The notes under the pieces are model-generated. The model was not told where the DNA came from. It did no database searches and worked only from the letters and a program-made list of their open reading frames with translations. Made by a program: the position numbers and the translations under genes. Shown here one piece after another: positions 1-56,385 of a DNA stretch of 64,000 nucleotides. How positions within the stretch are numbered: the stretch's first letter is position 1; every line of letters begins with the position of its first letter. Source of the DNA: Streptomyces violaceorubidus (lineage in GTDB: Bacteria > Actinomycetota > Actinomycetes > Streptomycetales > Streptomycetaceae); contig NZ_JODM01000017.1 of NCBI RefSeq assembly GCF_000717995.1, positions 1 to 64,000 of the forward strand, in the 5' to 3' direction.

Positions 1-86
1 GTCCGTCCTCGGAACGGCGCGGAATCGGTGGGACAGGGATCTGGAACTCCGTTGACGCGCCAACCGCTGCGGGCGGACACCCCCCG
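1..86. repeat. Short inverted-repeat element, copy 1 (cut by window start)
   Basis: These 86 bases are identical, base for base, to 13247-13332. The right end is the 13-mer CGGACACCCCCCG (74-86). In the second copy this is matched by a perfect inverted 13-mer at the other end, which here falls 8 bases outside the window. Identity stops exactly at the end of the 13-mer, which marks an element border. It contains no gene. It lies beyond the 3' end of the WYL regulator gene. Confidence 0.85.
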
Positions 87-334
87 ACACGACCCCTTCG
101 CGCCGTACGCGGCCATCCCGCCATCCCCCAGCTGCGGGCAGTCGTGCCTCCCCCAGTGCCTGAACGGCCTGGGAGGTACCCCCAGGCGGCACGGGTGGGC
201 GCAGCGGCACCCCGCTCCGCCGGGGCACCCCGCTACGCCGGGCCGCGTCCCACCCCCCCCCGGCCCACACCCACGCCGGGTGACCAGGAAACCCCGGTCC
301 GCGGCCCCCACCCCGCGCCGACCCACCCCGTGCC
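87..334. other. Intergenic region with a branched hairpin
   Basis: I see no convincing gene here. At 141-195 the DNA can fold: CGTGCC (143-148) pairs with GGCACG (188-193), and inside it CCTCCC-type and GGGAGG-type arms (147-156 and 168-176) pair. This may end transcription of the WYL gene, which reads leftward into it. At about 205-240 a 17-18 bp unit beginning GGCACCCCGCT is repeated in tandem with one change. Confidence 0.4.
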
Positions 335-1318
335 TCAGCCCCCGTACAACCCCGCCAACCGCCGCGCATCCCGCGCGAAGCGCTCCCGCAGTGTCGGTGG
401 TGACAGCACCTCCACCTCCGGCCCGAGCCCGCGGAGCTGCTCGTGCGCGACGTCCTCCGACTCCACCGGCAGCGCCACCGTCACCCAGCCCGCCGCGTCC
501 GGCGCCCCCGCGGCCGCCAGCCCCTCCCGGGCGGCCGGCGCGTCGACGGTGTGCGGCAGCGCGCGTACGCCCCGCTCCGACAGCCGCACCACGACCTCGG
601 CCCGCAGGATCGAGCGCGCGAACTGCTCGGCCCGCTCCGCCCAGAACGCGGGCAAATCGAAGGCGTCGTCCCGGACGAAGCGGTCCCCGCCCGGGTCCAC
701 CGCCGTGAAACGGTCGATGCGGTACACACGGAAGGGCCCGTCGCCGCCCGCCCCCGCGACCCGCGCGCACAGGTACCAGACCCCCGCCTTCAGCACCAGG
801 CCGTACGGCTCCAGTTCGCGGACGACCTCGTCCGTGCCGCGCCTGTAGCGTGCGGTGACGCGCCGGTCGTCCCAGACCGCGTCCGCCACCGCGGGCAGCA
901 GCTCGGGTGTCTCCGGCTCGCGGAACCAGTTCGGCGCGTCCAGGTGGAAGCGCTGGGCCGCCGTACGGGAGGCGTCCCGCAGGGAGGGGAGCAGAGCCGC
1001 CGACACCTTCAGGCGGGCCGCCGACGCGGCGTCCTCCAGGCCCATCTCGCGCAGCGGCCCAGGGACTCCGGAGAGGAACAGCGCCTCCGCCTCGCCCCGG
1101 GCCAGCCCGGTCAGGCGGGTGCGGTAGCCACCGATCAGGCGGTAGCCGCCGGCCCGGCCCCGCTCCGCGTACACCGGCACGCCCGCCTCCGACAGCGCCT
1201 GCGCGTCCCGCGTCACGGTCCGCTCCGACACCTCCAGCTCCCGGGCCAGCTCGGCGGCGGTCATCGTCGGACGGGACTGGAGGAGCAGCACCATCTTGAT
1301 CAGGCGGGCAGCACGCAT
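335..1318 (-). CDS. WYL-domain HTH transcriptional regulator
   Basis: Cytoplasmic DNA-binding regulator of 327 residues, normal for the family. An N-terminal winged helix of the HTH_11/DeoR type spans about residues 1-60 (AELARELEVSERTVTRD is the recognition region). A WYL domain with GVWYLCAR follows at about 130-210, then a C-terminal WCX-like extension. WYL domains bind nucleic acid or small ligands, but the signal here is unknown. I chose the ATG at 1318, giving the usual MRAARLIKM start; a GTG lies two codons upstream. No strong ribosome site is visible. The gene is separated from aceE by a perfect terminator palindrome, so it has its own promoter or depends on read-through. Target genes cannot be deduced. 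Confidence 0.85.
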   Translation of the reverse strand: MRAARLIKMVLLLQSRPTMTAAELARELEVSERTVTRDAQALSEAGVPVYAERGRAGGYRLIGGYRTRLTGLARGEAEALFLSGVPGPLREMGLEDAASAARLKVSAALLPSLRDASRTAAQRFHLDAPNWFREPETPELLPAVADAVWDDRRVTARYRRGTDEVVRELEPYGLVLKAGVWYLCARVAGAGGDGPFRVYRIDRFTAVDPGGDRFVRDDAFDLPAFWAERAEQFARSILRAEVVVRLSERGVRALPHTVDAPAAREGLAAAGAPDAAGWVTVALPVESEDVAHEQLRGLGPEVEVLSPPTLRERFARDARRLAGLYGG

Positions 1319-1341
1319 CCCCACATGATGCAGGAGGACGC

Positions 1342-12431: not shown

Positions 12432-13172
12432 ATGGGAGATTGGTGGCAGCGCAACATCGTGGAACCGGGCAAGCTGCCGCTGCTCCTCGCGCTGAGCGCG
12501 TTCGTGCTGACCTTCGTGGTCACCCGGGTGATCACGCGGCTGATCCGGGCGGGCAAGGGGCCCTTCGGGAACGTCAAGGCGGGCGGGGTGCACATCCACC
12601 ACGTGGTCCCGGGGGTCGTGCTCACCGTCATCGGCGGCTTCTGCGCGGTGGCGGGGGGCCGATACGGGTTCGGGTCGGCGCTCGCGGCGGTGGTCTTCGG
12701 GATCGGGGCGGGGCTCGTGCTGGACGAGTTCGCGCTGATCCTGCACCTCGACGACGTGTACTGGACCGAGGCGGGGCGCAAGAGCGTGGAGGTCGTGGTG
12801 CTCACCGCGGCCCTGGTCGGGCTGGTCCTTGCGGGGTTCACGCCGTTCGGCGTCGACGGGATGTCCCAGGAGGAGTTGCAGGACCGCGCGAACGTCATCG
12901 CGACCGTCGCGGGGAACTTCTTCTTCTCCCTCCTCGCCCTGGCCAAGGGCAAGGCACGGCTGGCGATCTTCGGGGTCATCGTTCCCGTGATCGCCCTGAT
13001 CGGCGCGGTCCGCCTGGCCCGGCCGGGGTCCCCGTGGGCCCGCCGGTTCTACGCCCGTCGCCCACGCGCCCGCGCGAGGTCCAGGCTGCGTGCCTACCAC
13101 CACGACCGCCGCTGGTCCGGGCCGCGCCGGGTCGTCCAGGACTGGATCGGGGGGCGTCCGGACCCGCGATGA
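12432..13172 (+). CDS. Actinobacterial integral membrane protein of unknown function
   Basis: 246 residues with about five membrane helices: residues 16-38, 55-80, 85-105, 120-140, and one near 175-195. The first loop has a striking HIHHVVPGV motif, and LDEFALILHLDDVYW follows the third helix. This His/Asp pattern could bind metal or a lipid head group. The C-terminal 50 residues are very Arg-rich and should lie in the cytoplasm. I know it only as a conserved hypothetical in Streptomyces and relatives. It diverges from cobS, and an inverted-repeat element sits past its 3' end. Function not assigned. Confidence 0.8.
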   Translation: MGDWWQRNIVEPGKLPLLLALSAFVLTFVVTRVITRLIRAGKGPFGNVKAGGVHIHHVVPGVVLTVIGGFCAVAGGRYGFGSALAAVVFGIGAGLVLDEFALILHLDDVYWTEAGRKSVEVVVLTAALVGLVLAGFTPFGVDGMSQEELQDRANVIATVAGNFFFSLLALAKGKARLAIFGVIVPVIALIGAVRLARPGSPWARRFYARRPRARARSRLRAYHHDRRWSGPRRVVQDWIGGRPDPR

Positions 13173-13238
13173 GGGTGCCTGCGGCTCCGGTGGGGGTGCG
13201 GGTGGCGCGGTGGGTTCGGTGGTGGGTCGGGGACGCGC

Positions 13239-13332
13239 CGGGGGGTGTCCGTCCTCGGAACGGCGCGGAATCGGTGGGACAGGGATCTGGAACTCCGTTG
13301 ACGCGCCAACCGCTGCGGGCGGACACCCCCCG
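13239..13332. repeat. 94 bp inverted-repeat element, copy 2 (complete)
   Basis: A complete element bounded by perfect 13 bp inverted repeats: CGGGGGGTGTCCG (13239-13251) and CGGACACCCCCCG (13320-13332). Bases 13247-13332 are identical to 1-86. Within it, GGCGCG can pair with CGCGCC and CGGT with ACCG in a crossed, pseudoknot-like order. It lies between the membrane protein gene and the cobT 3' end and could end transcription from both sides. It has no coding capacity, like a miniature inverted-repeat element. Confidence 0.85.
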
Positions 13333-13338
13333 CCGCGT

Positions 13339-14397
13339 TCACTCGCCCCCGTCGGAGACCTCCGGCAGCTCCGCCGCCAGCGACGCCGCCGCCTGGACCA
13401 GGGGGAGCGCCAGCAATCCGCCCGCGCCCTCGCCGACCTTCACGCCCTGGGACAGCAGCGGTTCCATGGCCATCCGGTCCAGCGCCTTCGCCTGGCCCGG
13501 CTCCCCGCTGTCGTGCGAGGCCAGCCACCAGTCCGGTGCCCGGAAGGCGACCCGCTGGCCGACCAGCGCGCACGCCGCCGTCACGACGCCGTCCAGGATC
13601 ACCGGCATCTTCCGCACCGCGCTCTGCAGCAGGAAGCCCGTCATGGCGGCCAGGTCCGCGCCGCCGACCGTGGCGAGGAGTTGCAACTGGTCGCCGAGAA
13701 CGGGCCGTGCGCGGCGCAGCGCGTCACGGATCGCCGCGCACTTGCGCATCCAGGCGAGGTCGTCGATCGGCACCCCGCCCCGGCCGGTGACGACCGACGC
13801 GTCCGTCCCGCACAGCGCGGCGACCAGTACGCCCGCCGCGGTCGTACCACCCACGCTCACATCCCCGAGCACCACCAGATCCGTGCCCGAGTCGGCCTCC
13901 TCGTCGGCCACCGCCATCCCGGCCCGGAAGGCGGCCTCCGCCGCCTCGAGGGTCAGCGCGTCCTCGATGTCGATGCGGCCGCCGCCGCGCCGCACCCGGT
14001 GTCCCGCGACCTCGGCCGGCAGCGTTTCCGGGTCGCAGTCCAGGGCCATGTCGACGACGCGTACGGGGACGTCCAGGCGCCTGGCGAGCACCGACACCGG
14101 CCGGCCGCCCTCCAGCACCTCGCGCACCAGCTCACCGGCGCCGCCCGCGGGCCGCGCCGACACGCCCAGCTCGGCGACCTTGTGGTCACCGGCGAACAGC
14201 ACCACCCGGGGGCGTACGACGGGGCGTACCGGTACGGCGGCCTGGGCGGCCGACAGCCACTCGCCCAGGTCGTCGAGGCGGCCCAGCGATCCGGGCGGAA
14301 CGACCTGACGCTCCCGGCGTGCCTCCGCGTCGCGGCGTACCCCGCCGTCGGGCCGCTCGATCAGGTCGGTGAAGTCGTCGAGATTCAGCGAGCTCAT
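13339..14397 (-). CDS. cobT: Nicotinate-nucleotide--dimethylbenzimidazole phosphoribosyltransferase
   Basis: Makes alpha-ribazole phosphate from nicotinate mononucleotide and dimethylbenzimidazole for the lower ligand of B12. Length 352 residues, typical for the family. Family features: the N-terminal PPGSLGRLDDLGEWL, the Gly-rich GDVSVGGTTAAGVL in the middle, and the C-terminal GMEPLLSQGVKVGEGAG-type loop (MAMEPLLSQGVKVGEGAGG here) with the catalytic Glu. I chose ATG 14397 (MSSLNLDDFTDLI). The methyltransferase gene diverges from it 139 bases away. The stop codon lies 6 bases from the inverted-repeat element. Confidence 0.94.
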   Translation of the reverse strand: MSSLNLDDFTDLIERPDGGVRRDAEARRERQVVPPGSLGRLDDLGEWLSAAQAAVPVRPVVRPRVVLFAGDHKVAELGVSARPAGGAGELVREVLEGGRPVSVLARRLDVPVRVVDMALDCDPETLPAEVAGHRVRRGGGRIDIEDALTLEAAEAAFRAGMAVADEEADSGTDLVVLGDVSVGGTTAAGVLVAALCGTDASVVTGRGGVPIDDLAWMRKCAAIRDALRRARPVLGDQLQLLATVGGADLAAMTGFLLQSAVRKMPVILDGVVTAACALVGQRVAFRAPDWWLASHDSGEPGQAKALDRMAMEPLLSQGVKVGEGAGGLLALPLVQAAASLAAELPEVSDGGE

Positions 14398-14536
14398 TCG
14401 CCGAACAGTACCGGCCCCGCACGAACCCGACGGAGGGCCCGTGGGCAGCACGCTCCGGCGGCGTCGCTGCACCCCGGAGCGCGCTCACGTACGTAACGTT
14501 TTGTCTGGAATTGCCGTCTCGTGTCGGGAGCCGCCC

Positions 14537-44033: not shown

Positions 44034-44150
44034 GGTCATGAGTGACAGTCATGAGGCCCCGGCCGACTGTCCGGCAACCCTCCGTCCGTGGCGGGGTGCC
44101 CCGGGTGAAGACCAGGTCGTGGACAGCAAGGTCCACGGCAAGCGCGGACC
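44034..44150 (+). ncRNA. SAM-IV riboswitch
   Basis: The run GGTCATGAGTGACAGTCATG, CCGGCAACCCTCC, GGCGGGGTGCCCCGGGTGA, AGACCAGG and GGCAAGCGCGG follows the conserved core of the actinobacterial SAM-IV (S-box-like) family. GGTCA (44034-) closes with the GACC of AGACCAGG, the binding core is CCGGCAACCC/GGGTGCCCCGGGTGA, and the 3' GTGGACAG-AAGGTCCAC stem (about 44119-44136) is the extra hairpin that marks SAM-IV. The aptamer should sense S-adenosylmethionine and lower expression of the class V aminotransferase, 232 bases downstream. Such switches usually control methionine and sulfur genes. Confidence 0.85.
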
Positions 44151-54109: not shown

Positions 54110-55153
54110 GTGGCGTCCCACCGTCGTCCCAAGCAGCCGAGCCGCACGCGCGTGACCGTGCTCACCACCGCTGCCGCCGCCGCCGTCGTTCTCAGCTCCC
54201 AGGCCGCCAATGCCGCCCCGAGCGAGAAGCCGGGCAAGGACGAGGTCAAGGCCAAGGTCGACAAGCTCTACGAGGAGGCCGAGCAGGCCACCGAGAAGTA
54301 CAACGGCGCCAAGGAGAAGCAGGAGAAGCTCCAGAAGGAGATCTCCACCATCCAGGACAACGTCGCCCGCGGCCAGGAGGAGCTCAACGAGCTGCGCGAC
54401 GGCCTCGGTTCGATGGCCAGCGCCCAGTACCGCTCCGGCGGGATCGACCCCTCCCTCCAGCTGTTCCTGTCCGCCGACCCGGACAACTACCTGGACAAGG
54501 CCTCCACCCTCGACCAGCTGAGCGGTCAGCAGGTCGAGGCGCTGAAGAAGATCCAGGTCAAGCAGCGCGACCTCGCCCAGCAGCGTTCCGAGGCCTCCGA
54601 GAAGCTCAAGGACCTCTCCGCCACCCGCACCGAACTGGGCAAGAAGAAGAAGGAAGTCCAGGGCAAGCTCTCCTCCGCGCAGAAGCTGCTCAACACGCTC
54701 ACCGCGCAGGAGAAGGCCGCCCTCCAGGAGGAGGAGCAGCGCGCCAACCGCACCAGCGAGCGCCAGGTCCTCTCCGGCGGCAACTCCGCCCCCGCCTCCG
54801 GCCGCGCGGGCGAGGCCTTCGCCGCCGCCCAGAGCAAGATAGGCACGCCCTACGTCTACGGCGCCACCGGCCCGTCCTCCTTCGACTGCTCGGGCCTGAC
54901 CTCCTGGGCGTACGCGCAGGCCGGCGTCGGCATCCCGCGCACCTCCCAGGCGCAGGCCAACTACGGCACCCGCATCTCCTCGGTGAGCCAGTTGCAGGTC
55001 GGCGACCTCGTCTTCTTCTTCAACGACCTGCACCACGTCGGCCTCTACGCCGGTAACAACCAGGTCCTGCACGCGCCGCGCACCGGCACGAACGTCCGCT
55101 ACGAGTCGATGAGCACCATCGGCGGCCCGTTCATGTTCGGCGTCCGGGTCTGA
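54110..55153 (+). CDS. NlpC/P60 peptidoglycan endopeptidase
   Basis: 347 residues, exported. The signal peptide ends SSQAANA-AP (about residue 36). An N-terminal coiled-coil domain of about 190 residues (EEAEQATEKYNGAKEKQEKL) is followed by a flexible Ala/Ser linker and a C40 domain with catalytic C260 (SFDCSGLTSWAYAQ) and H309 (HHVGLYAGNNQVLHAP). It cuts stem peptides of peptidoglycan like RipA-type proteins. GTG 54110 with GAAGGAG 9 bases upstream. The following gene is a paralogue with the same layout. Confidence 0.94.
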   Translation: MASHRRPKQPSRTRVTVLTTAAAAAVVLSSQAANAAPSEKPGKDEVKAKVDKLYEEAEQATEKYNGAKEKQEKLQKEISTIQDNVARGQEELNELRDGLGSMASAQYRSGGIDPSLQLFLSADPDNYLDKASTLDQLSGQQVEALKKIQVKQRDLAQQRSEASEKLKDLSATRTELGKKKKEVQGKLSSAQKLLNTLTAQEKAALQEEEQRANRTSERQVLSGGNSAPASGRAGEAFAAAQSKIGTPYVYGATGPSSFDCSGLTSWAYAQAGVGIPRTSQAQANYGTRISSVSQLQVGDLVFFFNDLHHVGLYAGNNQVLHAPRTGTNVRYESMSTIGGPFMFGVRV

Positions 55154-55368
55154 TCCCGACGTCCTCCGCGCCACCCGAAGTCACCCCCGCCGTGCCGCCC
55201 GTTCGGGCGAATCGCGTCCGGGCCCTGTGACCCCCCGCCCCGCCGGTGACCTGCGTCAGCGGCGGGGCGCCGTGTTGCGCGGCCCCCGAGGTCGTTGGCC
55301 GGTGCCCCGCCGCGGGGTTACTGTCTGCCGCGTTTCCCCGTCCGCCAGCGGAAGGAGTGCGGCTTCCC

Positions 55369-56385
55369 GTGGGGTCCCATCGCCGCCTTGCACCATCCGG
55401 GTTCGACCGCGGCTCCACCGCCGCCGTCGGCCTGCTCTCCGTGGCCGCCGCGCTCCTGGGCGCCGTACCGGCCGCGGCCGCTCCGCACGACGACCGGCGG
55501 GCGGAGGTGGACCGGCTCCACACCGAGGCGGAGCAGGCGACCGAGGCCTACAACAAGGCCGACGCGCGCACCGACGCGCTGCGCGAGGAGGTCTCGACCG
55601 CGCAGGACTCCATCGCCCGGCAGCAGCAGCGCGTCAACACCATGCGGGACGCGCTCGGTTCGCTGGCCGGGGCCCAGTACCGCTCCGGCGGCATCGACCC
55701 GTCGCTGGCGCTGCTGCTGTCCGCCGGACCGGACGACTACCTCGACCGGGCGTCCGTGCTCGACCGGATCACCACCCGCCAGGCGGGTGAGCTGAGGGAG
55801 CTCCAGCAAGCGATGCGCGACCTCGCCCAGGACCGTGCCGAGGCGGCCCGCAAGCTCACCGAGCTGGAGAAGGGCCGCAAGGCCGTCGCCGCCCACAAGA
55901 AGACCGTGGAGCGCAAGCTCGCCAAGGCCCGCGCGCTGCTCGCCGCCCTGCCCGACGACGAACGCGCCGTCTACCAGCGCGGGTCCCGCTCCGGCCGCGA
56001 GGACCTCACCGCCCTCGCCGGGGCCGCCGCTCCCGCCTCCGGCCGGGCCGCGGCCGCCTTCGCCGCCGCCCGCTCCGCCCTCGGCAAGCCCTACGTCTGG
56101 GGCGCCAACGGCCCCTCCGGCTTCGACTGCTCGGGCCTGACCCAGTGGTCCTACGCGCAGGCCGGAGTCGGCATTCCGCGCACCTCGCAGGCGCAGTCCG
56201 GCGCCGGGCGGCGGGTGTCCCTGGCCGAGGCACGGCCCGGAGACCTGGTCGCCTACCGCGACGACGCCAGCCACATCGGCATGTACGCCGGCAACGGCCA
56301 GGTGATCCACGCGCCCTACCCCGGCGCTCCGGTGCGCTACGACCCGGTCGGCATGATGCCGATCTCCTCGATCACCAGGGTGTGA
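55369..56385 (+). CDS. Second NlpC/P60 peptidoglycan endopeptidase (paralogue)
   Basis: 338 residues. Signal peptide region AAVGLLSVAAALLGAVPAAA, then a coiled coil (EAEQATEAYNKADARTDALR) and a C40 domain with C254 (FDCSGLTQWSYAQ) and H302 (SHIGMYAGNGQVIHAP). Very similar to the preceding protein along its length, so the pair arose by tandem duplication. GTG 55369 with GAAGGAG 11 bases upstream. The 215-base gap between them suggests separate promoters, though read-through cannot be excluded. Confidence 0.92.
   Translation: MGSHRRLAPSGFDRGSTAAVGLLSVAAALLGAVPAAAAPHDDRRAEVDRLHTEAEQATEAYNKADARTDALREEVSTAQDSIARQQQRVNTMRDALGSLAGAQYRSGGIDPSLALLLSAGPDDYLDRASVLDRITTRQAGELRELQQAMRDLAQDRAEAARKLTELEKGRKAVAAHKKTVERKLAKARALLAALPDDERAVYQRGSRSGREDLTALAGAAAPASGRAAAAFAAARSALGKPYVWGANGPSGFDCSGLTQWSYAQAGVGIPRTSQAQSGAGRRVSLAEARPGDLVAYRDDASHIGMYAGNGQVIHAPYPGAPVRYDPVGMMPISSITRV

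Follow-up and report, generated by a model that had tools for sequence, protein, structure and literature searches.

A family of dispersed hairpin repeats in Streptomyces, probably old, settled, and homogenized by recombination between copies

REP and BIME elements of enterobacteria and pseudomonads are short, intergenic, multi-copy imperfect hairpins of genome-specific types, and hairpin repeats scattered through genomes are commonly regarded as mobile debris. The enterobacterial sequences RU-1, RU-2, and RU-3 are presented, in the accessible part of the report, as small mobile sequences of 103–168 bp (PMC2759123), and repeated stem-loop sequences of bacterial genomes have been treated as families in a paper whose main text, by a term search, does not mention Streptomyces (PMC2267715). 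In E. coli, the dispersed rRNA operons undergo gene conversion and evolve in concert via intragenomic recombination (PMC8022953, accessible part), and template switching, inferred from RNA genes, is held to maintain RNA hairpins (PMC8794818, accessible part).

The Streptomyces element described here is likewise an intergenic, multi-copy, imperfect hairpin, and differs from REP and BIME in its longer unit, its conserved frame, its several exchangeable hairpin classes, and the absence of any Y1 match in its own genome. With RU-1, RU-2, and RU-3 it shares size, intergenic position, dispersal, and a MITE-like appearance; however, its sites are settled, its copies appear homogenized in place, and its genus is another, the two being compared by description only (PMC2759123, accessible part). 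It is also a family of repeated stem-loops, as are those of PMC2267715 in the portion consulted. A literature search, run largely without subscription papers, yielded no description of this hairpin family, and the accessible text of PMC1590033, PMC2267715, PMC3765725, and PMC2422843 contains none.

The window is a 64,000-nucleotide stretch of Streptomyces violaceorubidus DNA, bases 1–64000 of contig C17 in an assembly of 282 contigs (genome G000). It was originally predicted to hold, twice, a 94-bp element with perfect 13-bp terminal inverted repeats (TIRs). The TIRs are as claimed, with CGGGGGGTGTCCG at 13239–13251 and its exact inverse complement at 13320–13332, and window bases 1–86 do equal bases 13247–13332 with 0 mismatches. 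The spacing from TIR to TIR in the 94-mer is 68 bp, and a pattern search for two TIRs 20 to 50 nt apart, shorter than this true spacing, gave no match. The two copies, A and B, and their neighbors are laid out as follows.

13239..13332, minus strand: copy A, hairpin core (the predicted 94-mer); imperfect pairs are mostly G.U, not A.C, on this strand
13239..13251: stem P1, 3′ arm as read on the minus strand (one predicted TIR), from sequence and covariation
13320..13332: stem P1, 5′ arm as read on the minus strand (the other predicted TIR), from sequence and covariation
13222..13238, minus strand: conserved 3′ frame of copy A, with CCCCGACCCAC at 13222–13232
13173..13221, minus strand: conserved 3′ module of copy A, ..ACCCGCACCCCCACCG..CCGCAGGCACC
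13333..13357, minus strand: place of the 5′ frame of copy A; the frame is gone, fused to the cobT 3′ end
1..86, minus strand: hairpin core of copy B, truncated where the contig ends at window base 1
87..112, minus strand: intact 5′ frame of copy B, CCGCGTACGGCGCGAAGGGGTCGTGT
13339..14472, minus strand: cobT-type phosphoribosyltransferase (PF02277), stop codon at 13339–13341, with copy A 6 bp after the stop
12432..13172, plus strand: gene without a Pfam match, convergent with cobT and ending beside copy A
335..1324, minus strand: HTH/WYL-domain regulator, upstream of copy B in the RNA sense

Copy A occupies a 166-bp gap between the stop codon of the plus-strand gene (13170–13172), which its slightly shortened 3′ module abuts, and the cobT stop codon. 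In intact copies the 3′ frame pairs with the 5′ frame, and the 5′ frame missing from copy A is intact or nearly so in four of its orthologous copies.

The element was said to be present twice, but a search with the 94-mer places it at 11 positions in its own genome, with E values from 4.8e-43 to 3.9e-16, far above chance. Three of the 11 copies are cut by contig ends (the start of C17 and the ends of C27 and C65), and two are internally truncated. Because window base 1 is the start of contig C17, copy B is cut by the assembly and not at a boundary of the element. The claim that identity stops precisely at the terminal repeat is borne out on the right side and fails on the left, where the stop at base 1 is the contig start. 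The element explains part of the assembly breaks in this draft genome. As a separate observation, another match to the 13-mer begins contig C50 at its first base.

The flanks of the copies, predicted to differ, are in fact shared among copies in this genome on the left and on the right, and recur in other species. The left flank (gtgggtcggggncgcgc and further, about 80 bp) is common to 9 of the 10 own copies that are uncut on that side, the exception being L007, which has a deletion. The right flank (acacg.ccccttc..cgccgtacgcgg) is common to 7 of the 9 copies that no contig end interrupts; it has been lost from the cobT copy, and L011 is truncated. These frames beyond the TIRs are conserved both within and between Streptomyces species. 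The 94-mer is thus the hairpin core of one class, class I, in a Streptomyces family of dispersed, structured intergenic repeats. The full unit is about 160–220 bp long and comprises three parts: a conserved 5′ frame (on the minus strand CCGCGTACGGCG.GAAGGGG), a long hairpin whose apical loop varies, and a conserved 3′ frame with a module (CCCCGACCCAC .. GCGCACCCCCACCG .. CCGCAGGCA on the minus strand). The module ends in CCGCAGGCA and is absent from some copies.

A BLAST match was found in 55 of 199 genomes of the genus, and the covariance model R1 identifies the element in 37 of 121; in an order-wide sample, R1 matches occur in 67 of 197 genomes, all from one genus of six. One sequence titled Kitasatospora aureofaciens (L145) has the 5′ half and by its name contradicts the limit to a single genus. 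Seven carriers hold 6 to 19 copies each with an E-value limit of 1e-8; when the limit is relaxed to 1e-3, the R1 matches include weak reverse-strand echoes of the same copies. Collections of plasmids and phages gave no match. No Rfam covariance model matches the window element at its gathering score, and six loci that between them carry hairpins of classes I, II, and III likewise have no match at E up to 1.

Covariation among the copies is strong in the hairpin. In an alignment (A1) of 53 non-redundant copies (95% cut-off, from 71 distinct copies), the proposed structure is paired in 94.3% of cells compared with 90.3% in shuffled alignments, and 11 pairs have changes on both sides compared with 5.8. 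The covariation score is 0.136, against 0.071 for shuffles and 0.010–0.045 for slid partners, so the compensatory changes exceed both controls. Columns 25-129, 27-127, and 55-103 alternate among U.G, C-G, G-C, and U-A, and the outer stem as well as stem P2 vary with compensation. Two internal pairings had been predicted to cross each other. The GGCGCG/CGCGCC stem has compensatory changes, but the crossing CGGT/ACCG pairing is not supported: it is paired in 66.0% of cells compared with 65.2% in shuffles, 138 of 500 shuffles reach this value, and it has no covariation. A nested alternative, columns 51-54 with 104-108, also lacks covariation and was kept in model R1 as a conserved, putative pairing. 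Between species, the outermost stem varies as one block, ccgcgc/acacgt against ccgggg/ccccgt (L030, L037, L054–L058), with pairing kept in the copies shown.

The minus strand is favored as the folding strand, as RNA or as single-stranded DNA, because imperfect pairs are mostly G.U when read there. Over 33 class I pairs, G.U accounts for 82 cells and A.C for 14 on the minus strand, a count that omits two weak inner pairs, one of which has 11 C.A cells. In class II, the corresponding numbers are 47 and 3 on the minus strand, and 5 and 12 on the other. For class I, 62 of the 82 G.U cells come from three pairs, and the strand argument there depends on few variable pairs, since counting by pairs gives 11 against 9 (p 0.82).

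Positions were compared in a set of seven genomes, from which 77 of 78 copies were used (L270 has no core by the regular expression, and 13 of 19 matches in G251 are included). Apart from singletons, the 77 copies form 14 groups that share a site, and all six full own copies that were used share their site with another genome. Orientation is the same in 144 of 144 orthologous pairs. Copy A has orthologs in G118, G190, G277, and G328, where cobT is 94–96% identical, and in the same four genomes proteins 89–92% identical to the regulator beside copy B lie upstream of copies. The distance from A to B in these relatives is 13.2–13.4 kb, as in the window. In more distant genomes the cobT site is free of the element. 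From 60 matching genomes, the own locus and 29 others were taken. One of the 29, L131, ends 56 nt past the gene, which leaves 28 assessable, and none of these has a class I core or frame within 700 nt. As a side observation, the cobT of related genomes has a long, variable, often Glu-rich C-terminal tail (L115–L131, DNA reading); the window cobT ends shortly before the element (13339–13360).

A second site, between the PNP and PMM genes, was examined in 80 named genomes. By a strict count, which leaves out a relaxed re-scan that gave several false frame matches, a class I core is present in 20 of them. Neither core nor half is present in 43, although two of these, L183 and L195, have hairpins of other kinds; the remaining 17 have halves (L145, L182, L184), contig ends, or an unrecognized next gene. 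L195, from a distant species, is the one case of reversed orientation, and its hairpin belongs to another class. Five of the 80 named contigs end in or just past the PNP gene. The original prediction held that copies confined to orthologous positions, with no empty sites, would be a fixed repeat and not a mobile one. Within the clade the sites are indeed settled; further out, element-free sites exist, so that by this rule the family falls in between. Its alternative of a conserved mobile hairpin under selection is half right, in that the hairpin is real, multi-copy, and covarying, with sites filled or empty by lineage.

Copies within a genome tend to resemble each other more than they resemble their orthologs, and the unique flanks, apart from the upstream one, do not behave in this way; this is concerted evolution. 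With the outer 10 nt of the core removed, the 406 pairs of copies from one genome have an identity of 0.896, the 144 pairs that occupy one site in different genomes 0.862, and the remaining 2376 pairs 0.836. In 101 of the 144 orthologous pairs, the mean within the genome is higher than the identity to the ortholog; in the other 43, the ortholog equals or surpasses the paralogs. In the apical part of the hairpin, the mean for orthologs is 0.764 compared with 0.756 after permutation (reached by 97 of 2000 permutations), and 0.820 within genomes. Beyond the 3′ module, the flank has an ortholog identity of 0.670 against 0.549 permuted (0 of 2000), and the module itself has a small signal, 0.800 against 0.787 (0 of 2000). 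In the repeat-rich upstream flank, orthologs are no more alike than after permutation (0.599 against 0.600), and the homogenization or turnover is therefore not confined to the unit. Within five genomes, copies A and B differ from each other at 0, 2, 1, 13, and 0 bases, while copies at the same site differ between genomes by 3–15 bases. The exact identity of A and B that was first noticed in the window is an instance of this within-genome homogenization. The process is incomplete, since A and B differ by 13 bases in G277 and the ortholog is equal or closer in those 43 pairs. Identical copies within one genome need not mean recent insertion; here the sites are stable, and the sequences turn over in concert.

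A single genome, G405, shows reshuffling among copies. It holds 32 copies by the frame pattern, with two alleles of stem P1. The arms match in 28 of 30 scorable copies and are mismatched in 2; in the others, one arm is unreadable and one copy is of another class. Each of five apical alleles is combined with either P1 allele in different copies. Conversion over short tracts within the loop would produce such reshuffling of loop and stem, and template switching between arms could restore the two mismatched stems. The concerted evolution of dispersed copies is the feature shared with gene conversion of rRNA operons in E. coli (PMC8022953, accessible part). Template switching is a candidate route by which both stem arms change together, although it was described for RNA genes and is proposed here between dispersed repeats (PMC8794818, accessible part). 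With arms that stay paired while loops recombine, the family lends itself to measuring, in nature, both short-tract gene conversion and the compensatory evolution of hairpins. Its units are some 30 times shorter than rRNA operons.

Other hairpins lie in the same frame. A search with the frame only matched 57 of 295 genomes of the genus, with 3 matches in a backward control. Class II or similar hairpins were found in G040, G301, G385, G392, G405, G416, G432, and G441, as well as in L183 and L195, and L347 is class IIa by sequence. Class III is represented by two copies in G381 (L307). In hairpins of classes II and III, the stem is long and interrupted by a small asymmetric bulge or loop, and the apical loop is variable. 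One further locus, L322 (G058), fits the frame pattern and falls in none of the classes. Classes I and II coexist in G432, G040, and G385, and at the PNP-PMM site a class II-like hairpin in L183 takes the place where 20 other species hold class I. In G432, class I (..GCCGGAACGTCC) and part of class II (..GCCGGTACGTCC) have a similar stem. These patterns would fit a modular system, in which one conserved frame at fixed sites receives exchangeable hairpins of at least three kinds and stems are similar across classes within a genome, as though the stem were recognized by a partner specific to each genome and hairpins were exchanged genome-wide by recombination. We regard this as a speculative and rather unlikely extension; if true, the family would represent a novel type of RNA or single-stranded DNA element, dispersed and evolving in a coordinated way.

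How the units reached their sites bears on three alternatives to an old, settled family. The first reading of the element, a 94-bp non-autonomous DNA transposon (MITE) moved in trans by a transposase that recognizes the 13-bp TIRs, accounts for the perfect TIRs, the several copies, the patchy presence between species (37 of 121 genomes of the genus by R1), and the sites filled in some species and element-free in others. It is nevertheless very improbable, as the TIRs are not the ends of the repeated unit, conservation running past both in most copies, and as copies are settled at shared sites in the same orientation in near relatives, with compensated variation in the outer stem and P2. Among 94 exact 13-mers in four genomes, inverted pairs lie about 80 bp apart and none from about 0.1 to 13 kb. 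The predicted transposase with the same terminal repeats did not appear in these four genomes, with no inverted pair of the exact 13-mer at transposon length and no longer element between such TIRs, the own genome being in 282 contigs. Empty and filled sites were compared for target duplications, the nearest pairs being only 94% identical in the neighboring gene and their gaps aligning poorly.

A REP-like element, its single-stranded hairpin mobilized by a Y1 transposase of the RAYT type, is slightly less remote than the MITE, though still improbable. A one-strand hairpin, intergenic, in many copies and of genome-specific types, is what it would leave, but the Y1_Tnp domain (PF01797) has 0 matches in the own genome and in the carriers G001, G007, G009, and G014, and the 32 of 121 genomes of the genus that have it include both carriers and non-carriers. 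A lost helper or another enzyme of single-stranded DNA may have acted in place of a Y1 transposase. Independent re-insertions at hotspots, instead of conversion, might also make within-genome copies alike at shared sites, and some sites, such as PNP-PMM, do recur in distant species. Yet identical orientation in all 144 orthologous pairs, loops and stems reshuffled within one genome, and an ortholog signal kept in the downstream flanks leave that account little credence, about as little as the MITE.

The position of the folding strand relative to genes was surveyed at 60 independent sites, collapsed from 163 locus entries that include some duplicates. Copies inside called open reading frames were skipped; in a separate set of copies, four lay inside such frames, probably through errors of the simple gene caller. 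Of these sites, 25 lie between convergent genes and 6 between divergent ones; in tandem arrangements the element is in sense at 21 and antisense at 8 (p 0.024), and so the folding strand lies downstream of a gene on that gene's own strand at 46 of 60. At the other 14 sites (8 antisense, 6 divergent) it is not in a neighbor's 3′ UTR. Tandem sense outnumbers antisense by only 9 to 4 sites in the seven-genome set, and the convergent excess is only indicative because the background for it was drawn from 39 gaps of these loci, of which 27 are tandem, 12 divergent, and none convergent. On these sequence data, the hairpin is a putative RNA 3′-end structure, acting in termination or in protection of the mRNA end. 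This is the least certain step of the argument, and we hold it only tentatively. Its main rival on function is an element that matters as DNA, either a binding site or a hairpin in replication or chromosome structure, where a cruciform or one DNA strand is what counts. Such an element could stand on either strand relative to its neighbors, as this one does, and would explain a frame conserved in sequence and not only in pairing; moreover, G.T wobbles are tolerated in single-stranded DNA. The excess of convergent and tandem-sense sites fits transcripts better, and a DNA-level role seems unlikely, although less so than any of the transposition accounts.

Taken as a whole, we consider it probable that this is an old, settled repeat family, homogenized by recombination, whose hairpin is kept for a putative role at RNA 3′ ends. 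The units would have spread in ancestors by some route, the searches for a Y1_Tnp gene and for an element with the same TIRs having found no spreading agent, and would now be mostly settled. Short-tract gene conversion between copies would then keep them alike, possibly aided by template-switch repair between the arms, and the hairpin would be retained on the transcribed strand downstream of genes as an RNA 3′-end structure.

Several other features were observed in the window. A second dispersed repeat (cagctgcgggcagtcgtgcc .. ggcacgggtgggcgcagcggcacc) adjoins copy B at about 113–235 and is also found upstream of units of this family in several own copies and in other species. Within 54336–56199 lie direct repeats about 1.25 kb apart, one 280 nt long and 71% alike, the other 117 nt long and 86% alike. 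Finally, a SAM-IV riboswitch lies at 44034–44150 on the plus strand, scoring 114.8 bits against a gathering score of 38.
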